A stretch of 56,548 bases of DNA from NCBI GenBank assembly GCA_903955385.1, contig CAJBNH010000065.1, forward strand, positions 1-56,548, given 5' to 3'. Source of the stretch: an uncultured Myxococcales bacterium. Its GTDB lineage: Bacteria; Myxococcota_A; UBA9042. How positions within the stretch are numbered: position 1 is the stretch's first letter; each line of letters starts with the position of its first letter. Below the pieces are notes generated by a model. It was given only the letters and a program-made list of their open reading frames with translations. It was not told the origin of the DNA and did no database searches. Positions 28,048 through 34,708 of the stretch are shown here, one piece after another. Position numbers and translations under genes: made by a program.

Positions 28048-29850
28048 CTAGTCATCATCCGTGGACAGCACGGCCAGGAACGCCTCCTGCGGCACGTCCA
28101 CGGCTCCCACCTGCTTCATGCGACGCTTGCCGGCCTTCTGCTTCTCCAGCAGCTTGCGCTTGCGGCTGATGTCGCCGCCGTAGCACTTGGCGGTGACGTC
28201 CTTGCGCAGGGCCTTGACGGTCTCGCGCGAGATGATGCGCGCGCCGACCGCGGCCTGAATCGCCACGTCGAACTGCTGGCGCGGTATCACTTTTCGTAGC
28301 TTCGCCACCAGCGCCTTGCCCTTGGTGTAGGCGGCGTCGCGGTGCACGATGACGCTCAGCGCGTCGACGACTTCGCTGTGCAGCAGGATGTCGAGCTTGA
28401 CGAGATCGCCCGCCCGGAACTCCAGGAACTCGTAGTCCAGACTGGCGTAGCCGCGCGTGACCGTCTTCAGCTTGTCGAAGAAGTCGAAGATGATCTCAGC
28501 CAGCGGCATCTCGTACTCGAGCACGACCCGCTTGGGCGACATGTACTTCATGTCCTTCTGCACGCCGCGCCGCTCTGTGCACAGCTTGACCACGGGGCCG
28601 ATGTACTCGGAAGGTGTGGGGATTGTGCAGCGGATGAACGGTTCGCGGATGATCTTGATGTCCCCGGACACGGGCAGGTCACCGGGGTTCGACAGCTCCA
28701 TGATGGTGCCGTCGACCTTCTCGACCCGGTAGATCACGCTGGGCGCGGTGGTGATGAGGTCGACGTCGTACTCGCGCTCCAGACGCTCCTGGAAGACCTC
28801 CATGTGCAGCAAGCCCAGAAAGCCGCAGCGGAAGCCGAAACCAAGCGCGCCGGACGTCTCGGGCTCCCAGGAGAAGGACGAGTCGTTCAGCGCGAGTTTC
28901 TCGATGGCGTCTCGCAGGTTCTGGTACTCGGTCGACTCGACGGGAAAGATCCCCGAGTAGACCATCTGCTGGATTTCCTTGAAGCCCTGCAGCGCCTCTG
29001 CCGCCTTGCGCCGCGCGTGCGTGATGGTGTCGCCCACGCGGACGTCGCGCACGGTCTTGATGCCGCAGACCAGGATGCCCACCTCGCCGACCGACAGGTT
29101 GTCGACGACGACTTCCTTGGGCGTACGGACGCGAATTTCCTGAACTTCGTACTCTGTGCCGCCGGACATGAAGAAGATCTTGTCGCCCTTGGTCACTGTT
29201 CCGTCGAAGACCCGCACCTGGATGATGACGCCGCGGTAGGCGTCGTACTGCGAGTCGAACACCATCGCCCGCAGCGGCGCTTCCGGGTCGCCTTCCGGGG
29301 GCGGGATCAGGCGCACGACCGCCTCCAGCGTGTCCTGGATGCCGATGCCCGACTTCGCCGACGCCATGACCGCTTCGTGGGCGTCCAGACCGATGCCTTC
29401 TTCGATCTCGCGCTTGACCTCTTCGGGGTCCGCCGCCGGCAGATCGATCTTGTTGATCACGGGGATCAACGTCAGGTCTGCGTCGATGGCCAAGTACACG
29501 TTGGCCAGCGTCTGCGCCTCGACGCCCTGCACCGCATCGACCACCAGCAGCGCGCCCTCGCACGCCGCAAGCGAACGCGACACCTCGTAGCCAAAGTCCA
29601 CGTGGCCGGGCGTGTCGATCAAGTGCAGCGTGTAGGTCTCGCCGTCCTTGGCGGTGTAGTGCAGCCGAACCGCTTGGCTCTTGATCGTGATGCCGCGCTC
29701 GCGCTCGATGTCCATCGAGTCGAGGAACTGCGCTTGCATGTCGCGTTTTTCGACGGCACCGGTCATCTCGAGGATGCGGTCTGCCAGCGTCGACTTGCCA
29801 TGGTCGATGTGGGCGATGATGCTGAAGTTGCGAATGTTCTTGGCTTTCAT
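28048..29850 (-). CDS. lepA: Elongation factor 4 (LepA)
   Basis: A 600-residue translational GTPase (the E. coli protein has 599) that binds stalled or assembling ribosomes. The G1 motif is in '[14 protein letters not shown]', followed by '[12 protein letters not shown]', '[12 protein letters not shown]' and '[13 protein letters not shown]'. The LepA-specific C-terminal domain is clear ('[19 protein letters not shown]'). ATG at 29850. It lies downstream of the MC1-like gene, separated by a hairpin terminator. Confidence 0.97.
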
Positions 29851-29968: not shown

Positions 29969-30006
29969 AAAACGGCGAAAGGCCCTGGAGCCGAAACTCC
30001 AGAGCC
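29969..30006 (-). terminator. Rho-independent-type terminator of the MC1-like gene
   Basis: On the minus strand GGCTCTGGAG (30006-29997), loop TTTCGG, CTCCAGGGCC (29990-29981) forms a 10-bp stem with one G-T wobble. It is followed by TTTCGCCGTTTT, moderately T-rich. It stands 57 nt after the MC1-like stop and before lepA. Confidence 0.7.
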
Positions 30007-30062
30007 CTCGCGGTTTCTTCGCGTTGCGACGGTCGACGGGACCGCGCAGCACGACAACTTGG

Positions 30063-30332
30063 CTACAGGTGCTCGATACCGGTCTTCTTGACGACCGCCT
30101 TCCACACCTTGGCCGGCAGCCACTTCGGACGCGCGGTCGGAGCGGTCACCTGCAGACGCTTGCCCTCGAACACGTGAACGCGCTTGGTGCCGCGCTCGCG
30201 CAGACGAATGTCCGTGAACCCGCGGTTGGCGGCCTTCAGAGCGGCGCCGCGCGGCTGGGCGTTCGAGAACACGATCGTCGTATCCTGTCCGTTCTCCATC
30301 AGAACGAAGTTCTTCTTCGCCTTCTCAGCCAT
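30063..30332 (-). CDS. Archaeal-type chromosomal protein MC1 homologue
   Basis: An 89-residue basic protein that, after a short Lys-rich start, follows the DNA-bending protein MC1 of methanogens and haloarchaea almost end to end: 'NFVLMENGQDTTIVF', 'QPRGAALKAANRGF', 'DIRLRERGTKRVHVF', 'APTARPKWLPAKVWKAVVKK'. MC1 is a monomeric nucleoid protein that bends DNA sharply; the same role is expected here. The ATG at 30332 follows GAGGGGAG. The gene is monocistronic, with its own terminator. Base composition does not stand out, so any transfer from archaea would be old. Comparison is from memory of the family sequence, but the match is extensive. Confidence 0.88.
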   Translation of the reverse strand: MAEKAKKNFVLMENGQDTTIVFSNAQPRGAALKAANRGFTDIRLRERGTKRVHVFEGKRLQVTAPTARPKWLPAKVWKAVVKKTGIEHL

Positions 30333-30723
30333 GGCCAGTTTCTCCCCTCAGCGGGCCACTTCATTGACCGGGCCCCCCGGCGGATGAAGCAGCTTTCGTA
30401 ACACTGCGAGGTATGCGGTGGAACGCGCCGACACGCAAGTCTTCTCACGTACAAAGGAAGGCCGTCCGAGGGTGTGTCGGACCTGACGTCATGGGGGTCA
30501 GACGCGAGCGTGCGCGGCATGCGCGATATAACAACAGGAAACGAAACGAGATTATGCGTCGCAGCCGAGCACGCTCCCGTTCACTCTGGACAGGCGGCGC
30601 GGTCGTGATCGCGGATGATCGTCGGCGGAATTCCCTTGATCGCATCAGCGTGTCGCGATCGAGTTCGCCCAGAAAGTTCCCGCAGCGCGGGTGCGTGCTA
30701 CGGTGCGCGCTGGAGGACTCCGG
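30333..30723. other. 391-nt non-coding region between divergent MC1-like and transglycosylase genes
   Basis: It must hold the promoters of both divergent genes, but I see no convincing -35/-10 pair. A short AT-rich patch at 30526-30560 includes TATAAC (30527-30532). Two inverted repeats lie at 30464-30482 (GTCCGA/TCGGAC) and 30483-30501 (CTGAC/GTCAG). No RNA gene is recognised. Confidence 0.4.
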
Positions 30724-32943
30724 ATGCCCCGTGCCGTACTCGTCATCGCCGTGACCCTGCTTTCGTCGCTGCTGTCCGCGCCGGTGGCGGCCCTGCCCTG
30801 GAACCGACTGCACGCTGCGGTCCAGCGGCTGCGGGTGGCGGACCTTGACGGGTTGGACAAGTCGCTGGTGTCGGTCGAAGAAGAGAGCAAATCCGAAGAC
30901 ATGGACGCACTGGTGGCGTACCTGCGGGCCCGACTGGCGGTTCGTCGCGGCGAGGGTTCCAAGGCGCGAGCCCAGCTGGCCAAGGCGCAACGGATGCGGC
31001 AAGTGTCGCCCGAGGCTTGGGATTGGGCGGAGATCGAGGTGCTGGTGGCCGACGGCAAGCCCGGCGACGCACTGACCAAGCTGGAGACATTCCGCAAGGC
31101 GTGGCCGCAGTTCCGGTGGGCGGCGGCCGACCTGCTGTACTCGCGGCTGCTGGAACGCGTTGGCCCTGCCGAGACGACTGCCGAGCTGTCGCTGCAGCTG
31201 TACGAGAAGACCCAGCTGCACCTGCCGCGCGATGAGCTGTTGGCAAGGGCCGCGCGGGTGCTGGCCGCCAAGGCGCCAGAGCGGTCGCGGGAGCTGTGGA
31301 AACGCCTGCTGATGAAGCACCCGGAGAGCGACTTCGCCGGAGAAGCCGCCAAGTTCTGGAACCCAGAGCAGTTTTCCGATGCGGAGCAGTTCGCGCGCAT
31401 GGAGCTGCTGTTCGCCCGTCGCGCCTACGAGCGGTGCCGTGAGATCGCCCTGCGCTTGTGGCTTCGCGAGCATCGGCCCGCGGAAGTGGGCTATTACCTT
31501 GGCAAGATCGGATCTGAGCGGCTGCGCGACGACTATTCCGGCGCGACGCGGATGCTGGAAGTGGCGAGCGCCGACGGTGCGCCGTTGCAGAAAGCTGCCC
31601 TGATCTCCTATGGCATCGTGCTGATGAAGGTGCACCGGCCCAACGACGCGGTGGCGGCCTTCGACAAGTGGCTGGCGCTGTATCCCGACGAGCCGTTGGC
31701 CAAGCGCGTCGAGACCCAGTACGACCGCGGACGCGTGCTGCACGGGGCGGGGCTGTCGCTGGACGCGGCGCGCGACCTCGAGACCTTCCTGAACACCTGC
31801 AAGAACGGCAACTTCGACTTCCCCAAGTACTGGTGGTTCGTCGGCTGGTGGCGTTACCGCGGCGGCGACATGGCAGGCGCGGTCGAGGCCTTCAAGCCCC
31901 TGCTCGCTTTCAAGAATCCGCTGGTGGGCGGCAAGGCGCGCTACTGGACCGGCAGGGCGCTGGACAAGCTGGGCAAGCGCGACGAGGCGGTCGAGGTCCT
32001 GGCCAATCTGGTGCGCGACGACCCGTTGACCTACTACACCGCCCTTGCCGAGCTGCGGCTGAACGAGTGGGGGCAGGGCAAGCGCGTCAAGAAGCTGCCG
32101 GACCTGTCGCACGTGCCGCACAAGGCCAGCGACGCGTTTGCGGGGCTCAAGGCATCGCCCGAGCTCGACCGACTGCGTCTGGCGGTCCACATGGGCGAGG
32201 CGGACACGGCGAACGACGTGCTGGAAGAGGTGCGCAAGCCGCTGGAGAAGCAGATGGGCAAGGCGCGGTTCGAGCGTCTTGTCGAGGACTTGGCCGACCC
32301 GCTGGAGGACTACGCCAATCCGCGGCAAGAGGCGGTGCGCCAGTGGGGCTCCGTGTTGGACGAGCCACCGTCCGCCAAGAACGTGGACAAGTGGCGCGCC
32401 ATCTATCCTCGCGCCTACGAGACGCATGTGGTGGCGGCGTCAAAGGAATTCGGCGCCCCGGAGTGGATGGTCTACGCGCACATGCTGCAGGAGTCGCGGT
32501 ACAAGCCGTGGCTGATCTCCCACGCCCCCGCCTACGGCCTGCTCGAGCTGTTGGATCGCACCGCGGCCCGTCTGGCGAAGGACGCGGGCGACGACTACCA
32601 GCTGTGGAAGCTGATGGTGCCGGCGTGGAACGTGCGCTGGGGCACGCAGTACCTTGGGGCGCTCTACAAGAAGTTCGACAAGCAACTGCCTTTCGCGATA
32701 GGCAGTTACAACGGTGGGCCGATGCTGTTCGAGCAGCACACCCGCAACAACGCCAAGCTGGAATTGGACGAACTGATCGACGACCTGGGCCCGCACGAGA
32801 GCCGCAACTACGTCCGCATGGTCATCGGCCACTTCCTGCGCTATCTGGCGATTTACGAGAAGCCCGCCAAGGCGCGGGAGTACCGCGAGCAGCTGTTCCC
32901 GATGAAGTGGCACGGCAAGTTCTTGGCGCAACCGGACTTCTGA
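30724..32943 (+). CDS. Slt70-like lytic transglycosylase
   Basis: A 739-residue periplasmic peptidoglycan-cleaving enzyme. A signal peptide (about 1-24) is followed by a long alpha-helical superhelix of TPR-like repeats (about 30-560) and a C-terminal SLT domain. The catalytic Glu590 lies in 'MLQESRYKP'; 'SYNGGP' and 'ESRNYVRMV' match later SLT motifs. The usual 'GLMQLMP' is replaced by 'YGLLELLDRTAARLA', a departure near the active site. The ATG at 30724 has GGAGG 7 nt upstream. Its 3' end is 3 nt from the convergent GIDE-like gene. Confidence 0.87.
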   Translation: MPRAVLVIAVTLLSSLLSAPVAALPWNRLHAAVQRLRVADLDGLDKSLVSVEEESKSEDMDALVAYLRARLAVRRGEGSKARAQLAKAQRMRQVSPEAWDWAEIEVLVADGKPGDALTKLETFRKAWPQFRWAAADLLYSRLLERVGPAETTAELSLQLYEKTQLHLPRDELLARAARVLAAKAPERSRELWKRLLMKHPESDFAGEAAKFWNPEQFSDAEQFARMELLFARRAYERCREIALRLWLREHRPAEVGYYLGKIGSERLRDDYSGATRMLEVASADGAPLQKAALISYGIVLMKVHRPNDAVAAFDKWLALYPDEPLAKRVETQYDRGRVLHGAGLSLDAARDLETFLNTCKNGNFDFPKYWWFVGWWRYRGGDMAGAVEAFKPLLAFKNPLVGGKARYWTGRALDKLGKRDEAVEVLANLVRDDPLTYYTALAELRLNEWGQGKRVKKLPDLSHVPHKASDAFAGLKASPELDRLRLAVHMGEADTANDVLEEVRKPLEKQMGKARFERLVEDLADPLEDYANPRQEAVRQWGSVLDEPPSAKNVDKWRAIYPRAYETHVVAASKEFGAPEWMVYAHMLQESRYKPWLISHAPAYGLLELLDRTAARLAKDAGDDYQLWKLMVPAWNVRWGTQYLGALYKKFDKQLPFAIGSYNGGPMLFEQHTRNNAKLELDELIDDLGPHESRNYVRMVIGHFLRYLAIYEKPAKAREYREQLFPMKWHGKFLAQPDF

Positions 32944-32946
32944 GTC

Positions 32947-33798
32947 CTACAGCACCGTTTGCACCAGGCCCACGACCGCCAGCACCAGACCGATGACGGC
33001 CGACGCGATCCCGCCGATCTTCAGCCACTTGGCGTTCTTCTGACCGGCGGCGACCAGCTCTTCCTCACTCTTGACCGACAGCACGTAGGGCTTGGTCGTC
33101 TCGCCTTCCTTGGCCGCCGTCGGCTTGTGCAGCGACAGGCCCTCGTCGGTGTCGGCGATCTCTCCCAGTGCGTACACCCGGCCGCCGACCGGCAGGATCG
33201 ACTCGCGGAAGCGGTAACCCTTGACGCGGTAGTTGGATCCCATCGAGCCATAGCCGCCGTAGCCGCCGCCGAAGCCCACCTGAAACGACCCGAAGCGCAG
33301 CATGGAACCGCCCGCTTCCACCGAATTCGGGGCTTCGAACCGATCCACCACCTGCTGCAGCGTGAAGTCTGCGCCGTCTGCCCGCACCTCGATCTGGCCG
33401 GTGCCGTCATCCAGCACGAACGGCGTCTTCAGGCTGGTCTGGTGGACGCTCTCAGTCCGCGTCTCCCAGCGTTGCGTGACCCGGCCGTTGGCGTCGCGGT
33501 CCTCTCGCATGAACTCGGTCTCACGCACCACCGACGTCTCGACGACCGCCGCCGCCTGGCCGCTCAGCTCGCCTTTCAGCGGCTGGTCGCAACGCACGGT
33601 GCCCTTGAGTTCCACGTACTCGCGCAGCTCAGACGGCCCGCCGCCCAGCTCGTCGCGCACCTGCTTGATGGTCTCGAACAGCGTCCCGAGCTTGGTTGTC
33701 TCGGTCGCCCGCATGAACAGCACCTTGTCCGCCGCGCGCTTGGCCAGCCAGACCAGCAGGCCGGCAAGGGCGATCAGGATCAGTCCGAACCACAACAT
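32947..33798 (-). CDS. MULAN/GIDE-like membrane protein without a RING domain
   Basis: A 283-residue protein with a TM helix at each end (about 1-22 and 258-283) around a soluble domain. The soluble part resembles the BAM/side domain of the eukaryotic mitochondrial ligase MULAN and its bacterial relatives: 'ELREYVELKGTVRCDQPLKG', 'ETSVVRETEFMRE', 'SLKTPFVLDDGTG', 'FRESILPVGGRVYALGEI'. A Gly/Tyr-rich insert lies near residue 190. No RING or zinc-binding Cys is present, so ligase activity is not expected. The ATG at 33798 has GGAGG 5 nt upstream. Role in bacteria unknown. Confidence 0.75.
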   Translation of the reverse strand: MLWFGLILIALAGLLVWLAKRAADKVLFMRATETTKLGTLFETIKQVRDELGGGPSELREYVELKGTVRCDQPLKGELSGQAAAVVETSVVRETEFMREDRDANGRVTQRWETRTESVHQTSLKTPFVLDDGTGQIEVRADGADFTLQQVVDRFEAPNSVEAGGSMLRFGSFQVGFGGGYGGYGSMGSNYRVKGYRFRESILPVGGRVYALGEIADTDEGLSLHKPTAAKEGETTKPYVLSVKSEEELVAAGQKNAKWLKIGGIASAVIGLVLAVVGLVQTVL

Positions 33799-33922
33799 GA
33801 GAACCTCCAAGTCGTTTGCGCGCAGACGTTTGCCGCAGGGGTGACAGTGCAGGACGGTGGGGGTGGCGGTCAAGATGCCTCGCTTGACGCCCCTTGTCAC
33901 CGCGCACACCATTCGACCGCCT

Positions 33923-34708
33923 ATGGACCGCCCCGCCCGCATCGCCGATTCGTTCTCCCGCGCCGCTGAGCACTACGACTCTGCCGCTGCGGTGCAGCGT
34001 ATGGCGGCGGATCGCGTCGTGGACGTCGCGCTGCGGCACTTGGCTGGCGTCCCGCAACCGCGCATTCTGGAAGTGGGTTGCGGTACCGGCTATGTCTCGC
34101 AGCGACTGTTGCAGGCCATTCCTGGCGGCACGTTTCTGGTCACCGACCTTGCTCAGGGGATGGTCGACGAGGCGCAGCGGCGCTTGGGCGGCGACCCTCG
34201 GACCACCTTTTCGCTCCTGAACGGCGAGCACCCGAACGCGACGCAGGCCGGAAGCTTCGACCTCATTGTCTCGAGCCTCGCGGTGCAGTGGTTCGCAGGG
34301 CTGGGTCAAGGGTTGCGCGGGCTGGCGGGACTGCTGGCTCCCGGCGGGCGGCTGGTCGTGTCGACGCTGGGGCAGGGCGCGCTGCAGCAGTGGCGCGACG
34401 CCCACCGGGTCCACAACCTGCCGTGCTCGACGCCGGAGTACCCGAGTCCCGAGTGGTTTCGGACGGTCTGGCCCCGCCACGGTCACGGCTCGCTGGAGGC
34501 CGACTTGGTGTGCGACGTGTGCTACGCCGATGGCAGGGCATTCGTCGAGACTTTGCAGGTGCTGGGGGCCGCGACGCCGATGGTCGGCGAGGTCCGTTTG
34601 GGGCCGGGGCAGTTGCGTCGCGTTTTCCGCGAGCTGGGCACGGAGTGCAGCGTGACGTGGCGCGTGCTGGTGTTCGAGTTTCGCGATGGACGGTCGGCCG
34701 AAAGTTGA
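33923..34708 (+). CDS. bioC: Malonyl-ACP O-methyltransferase BioC-like
   Basis: A 261-residue SAM methyltransferase whose N terminus ('IADSFSRAAEHYDSAAAVQ') is the BioC signature, with motif I 'ILEVGCGTGYVSQRLL' and 'LIVSSLAVQWF'. BioC caps malonyl-ACP so that the ordinary fatty acid synthase can build pimeloyl-ACP for biotin. The ATG at 33923 gives the expected N terminus but has no clear Shine-Dalgarno. It precedes the fatty acid operon by 153 nt and shares its ACP-linked chemistry. No other bio genes are present, so another ACP-linked methylation is possible. Confidence 0.82.
   Translation: MDRPARIADSFSRAAEHYDSAAAVQRMAADRVVDVALRHLAGVPQPRILEVGCGTGYVSQRLLQAIPGGTFLVTDLAQGMVDEAQRRLGGDPRTTFSLLNGEHPNATQAGSFDLIVSSLAVQWFAGLGQGLRGLAGLLAPGGRLVVSTLGQGALQQWRDAHRVHNLPCSTPEYPSPEWFRTVWPRHGHGSLEADLVCDVCYADGRAFVETLQVLGAATPMVGEVRLGPGQLRRVFRELGTECSVTWRVLVFEFRDGRSAES

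Follow-up and report, generated by a model that had tools for sequence, protein, structure and literature searches.

The window analysed here, a 56,548-nucleotide stretch forming contig 65 of the 5.3 Mb genome (95.6% complete) of an uncultured Myxococcales bacterium, carries on its reverse strand, at 30063–30332, an 89-residue coding sequence with an ATG start, whose strongly basic 10 kDa product (net charge about +12; pI 11.1) belongs to the archaeal chromatin protein family MC1 (Pfam accession: PF05854). A first-pass annotation, made from the sequence alone, had proposed a resemblance to MC1 over nearly the full length of the product, and the profile search bears this out with 99.8 bits (E 1.1e-28) against a curated cut-off of 23 bits, residues 6–89 covering profile positions 2–95/96; the two motifs quoted in its favour, 'AALKAANRG' and 'IRLRERGTKRVHVF', are both found in the protein. 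MC1 structures alone were matched by phmmer in the PDB (1T23, 2KHL and 2NBJ; E 1.5e-18), and the copy count that had been suggested as a check, performed as a six-frame search of the whole genome, returned a single gene.

The gene has a single-gene layout, with its own strong ribosome-binding site (GAGGGGAG; 30342–30349, reverse strand) visible in the sequence 9 nt 5′ of the ATG, as had been claimed, and comparable sites precede MC1 in other genomes of the family. Divergent from it lies a lytic transglycosylase gene of the SLT type with TPR repeats (30691–32943, forward strand), and the intervening region (30333–30690) is by its position the expected site of the MC1 promoter, with no sigma-70-type consensus found within it. 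Downstream on the same strand, across a gap of 212 bp, is lepA (28048–29850), the neighbour already named in the first reading. The terminator claimed in that reading holds in part: a strong hairpin with a UUCG loop (29969–30017, reverse strand; z −2.4) is predicted by folding of the gap and is a possible terminator or attenuator, but its tail has no clean T run, and a terminator scan found no T-run terminator between MC1 and lepA.

Pfam assignments identify the window neighbours as bacterial, including lepA, the SLT-TPR transglycosylase, a GAF histidine kinase and a methyltransferase. The lepA–MC1 pair is bracketed by two cell-wall lytic enzymes, the SLT transglycosylase and an N-acetylmuramidase (PF11860; 27082–28044, forward strand). 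The product of a further gene, at 32947–33942 on the reverse strand, matches the GIDE domain family (PF12483; Pfam name E3 ubiquitin ligase) with 107.6 bits over residues 148–321; this family is known chiefly from eukaryotic mitochondrial ligases.

DNA-contact residues and predicted fold

The binding mechanism of Methanosarcina MC1 has been described by NMR and mutagenesis, where Trp74 and Pro72 insert into the minor groove at one end of the site; Ile89, with Lys86, Lys54 and His56, acts at the other end; and Arg25 neutralises phosphates that are forced close together, generating a V-turn (PMC3928310; PMC6776556). Affinity and bending are lost in R25, P72 and W74 mutants, and affinity is lowered by Met75Leu (PMC3928310). 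The window protein resembles this homologue over its whole length and shares the contacts R25, Q23, P72, W74, K86 and I89, so that all those relevant by mutagenesis (Q23, R25, P72, W74 and I89) are present; the equivalents of W74, P72, I89, K86, K54, H56 and R25 are W71, P69, I86, K83, R51, H53 and R28, respectively. Across bacterial copies, Q23, R25, K30, H56, P72, W74 and K86 are invariant (31/31), with position 89 occupied by isoleucine, valine or leucine. DNA bending in these bacteria would follow from the conserved residues: a small, basic, monomeric protein is expected to enter the minor groove at two sites about one turn apart and to fold the DNA into a sharp V-turn, one arginine neutralising the phosphates pushed together.

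In contrast to the Methanosarcina protein, the window protein has a shorter loop before strand 3 and four substitutions, with differing distributions: Met75 is leucine in every bacterial and every MG-II (Poseidoniales) copy; Arg88 is replaced by glycine in every bacterial copy and in most archaeal ones; Lys22 is alanine in the window protein; and Gln26 is glycine, a change also found in MG-II. Three of these (M75L, K22A and Q26G) suggest that DNA affinity may be lower than that of Methanosarcina MC1.

An AlphaFold model of the window protein is confident (pLDDT 89.5), and its comparison with solved chains ranked 1T23 first, at a weak Z of 3.3 tied with unrelated chains; Foldseek returned no significant match to the PDB, though the sequence relation is plain. 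Taken by itself, the structural comparison with the MC1 fold, a helix packed on a beta barrel or sheet with a mobile arm, is therefore not decisive. Predicted giant-virus proteins, one of them named MC1, match the fold. These MC1-like proteins of chlorella viruses, Pandoravirus and Faunusvirus are similar in predicted fold, but differ in sequence, with at most 33% identity among the matches listed.

Distribution, gene context and selection

MC1 is present in 19 of the 22 genomes of the source family, at one copy each. Within the same class it is also found in three further families (f5, f6 and f7), and elsewhere in the phylum in f16 (5/6 genomes) and f53, giving convincing matches in 31 of 379 sampled genomes; this count leaves out a weak match in one other genome (G233; 24.5 bits), rejected because it looks like a low-complexity chance match. 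An exact short-pattern scan of 84,980 species genomes, a method that reaches close relatives only, recovered sequences of Myxococcota type and archaeal ones only. True loss is poorly evidenced in the three family genomes without MC1, since no lepA orthologue was found in two of them either (G001 and G018), and in the third (G005) a lepA copy similar to the window's is cut off by the contig end at the edge next to which MC1 would be expected; the absences look like assembly gaps. G005 contains two lepA genes (L153, G005:C802, and G005:C462) that differ in their identity to the window's lepA (56% and 68%), as would fit the 6% contamination of this genome.

In every one of the 18 family genomes whose assembly extends to the SLT-TPR side, MC1 remains divergently paired with that gene, and lepA is the neighbour on the other side in 12 of 19. 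Across the family, the SLT protein is only ∼42–58% identical to that of the window, in aligned parts, versus 71–83% for MC1. Both f7 genomes have a common MC1 context that differs from that of the source family, and other contexts are shared by two f16 genomes and by three f53 genomes. The shared contexts indicate that within families MC1 is an old gene passed on by vertical descent, and that between families it has been moved or separately gained. Within genera, MC1 dN/dS is 0.01–0.08, between-genus values having been set aside because synonymous sites are near saturation, and the gene is under purifying selection. The first-pass view of an established gene is therefore upheld, by the common context of the 18 family genomes and by this constraint.

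These observations also bear on whether MC1 derives from archaeal contamination of the assembly, a possibility raised by the family being known otherwise from archaea and viruses. However, bacterial genes flank MC1 on both sides, its GC3 and codon usage are host-like, and an identical context recurs in independent metagenome-assembled genomes of the family; contamination was ruled out on this shared synteny and its probability is negligible, in agreement with the original judgement that the contig is not archaeal. Carriage by a virus or plasmid was likewise rejected, only haloarchaeal plasmids having been matched, with no close MC1 relatives found in phage or IMG/VR collections.

Relation to archaeal MC1 and probable role beside HU/IHF

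In a 130-sequence tree, all bacterial MC1 proteins form one clade (100/98) with those of MG-II and two other archaeal sequences, apart from methanogens and haloarchaea. The initial assignment to the MC1 of methanogens and haloarchaea was thus correct as to family, but the closest archaeal relatives are MG-II, which are 65–69% identical to the window protein and share Q26G and M75L with it; they differ in their archaeal hosts and at position 71, which is mostly glycine or alanine in MG-II and arginine in the window. In a reduced tree rooted on Halobacteriota, MG-II is a single clade (97/86) that joins a bacterial group of f16, f53 and f5 (97/89) and falls inside the bacterial sequences, although not significantly. 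The alignment comprises only 85 columns, too few to fix the donor or the direction of transfer.

Repeated gain by Myxococcota, whether from archaea (MG-II-like or other) on several occasions or by exchange between families, is roughly an even bet: the bacterial copies fall into at least two groups around MG-II, gene neighbourhoods differ by family, and f16 has both sequence types, whereas a single bacterial clade is not rejected in either tree (AU p 0.43 for the 130-sequence tree; 0.145 for the reduced tree) and the short alignment weighs against reading much into the grouping. This alternative is about origin and does not conflict with the function preferred below. MG-II are themselves thought to have acquired MC1 by transfer (PMC7613761), so a bacterial source is possible; that Myxococcota are an old home of MC1, from which MG-II received it (archaea to bacteria to other archaea), is nevertheless a doubtful proposition. 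Elsewhere among the archaeal sequences, a Thermoplasmatota genome of the Poseidoniales phylum (G545) has two equal-scoring MC1 copies (L096), on a long branch apart from the MG-II clade, and a Methanothrix genome (G381) has five matches (L062 and L067–L070), two of which are fragments, most archaea having one or two.

HU/IHF genes were found in all 52 class genomes tested, so replacement of HU by MC1 was ruled out; histone-fold genes were found in none of 46 class genomes, and none of archaeal type in the source genome. The HU/IHF count, also suggested at the outset, gives four genes in the source genome. Given HU/IHF and the lack of an archaeal-type histone, MC1 would be an extra chromatin protein and not a replacement. 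Its codon adaptation is at the level of ribosomal proteins and above all 37 window ORFs, although 8% of equal-length stretches from other window genes reach the same value; high expression is suggested, no more.

The reading we favour, at a probability of roughly 80%, is that of a genuine MC1 that passed between archaea and an ancestral member of the lineage, was kept, and probably serves as an additional nucleoid-associated protein. Gained by such a transfer, the gene would have become fixed in the myxobacterial ancestor and then been inherited vertically, its product most likely bending and compacting the chromosome beside HU/IHF and perhaps protecting DNA; bending, abundance and cellular role are what we infer from sequence for the bacterial protein. 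A true MC1 homologue could instead now be a regulator or DNA-stress protein acting at few sites, an improbable alternative for which it may be argued that HU/IHF already serves general packing in every class genome, that contact residues K22, Q26 and M75 differ, and that Haloferax MC1 is rarer than other candidate nucleoid proteins (PMC7613761). Against it, the residues for shape-based binding and bending are invariant, and codon adaptation suggests good expression.

MC1 has been regarded as belonging to archaea and giant viruses: a 2017 fold survey placed it as common to archaea and eukaryotic viruses only (PMC5671483), and a 2021 paper described its occurrence in chlorella viruses (PMC8715426). 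A search of the main texts of open-access articles turned up no account of MC1 in bacteria; the family is known, whereas its establishment in bacteria seems to be new. The near-universal presence of MC1 in one bacterial family, on top of HU/IHF, provides a naturally occurring system in which to examine whether the two domains' chromatin proteins can stand in for one another or perform separate jobs, and it bears on the source of MC1 in MG-II archaea. By analogy, the nearest parallel is provided by the Bdellovibrio histones (HBb, Bd0055), where a chromatin protein of archaeal/eukaryotic type has likewise become established in a single lineage of bacteria (PMC10627809; PMC11317129), although the MC1 fold is unrelated and histone-fold genes are absent from the 46 class genomes. 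HTa, the HU homologue of Thermoplasma, is a further chromatin protein transferred between domains (PMC7613761), in the opposite direction, from bacteria to archaea.
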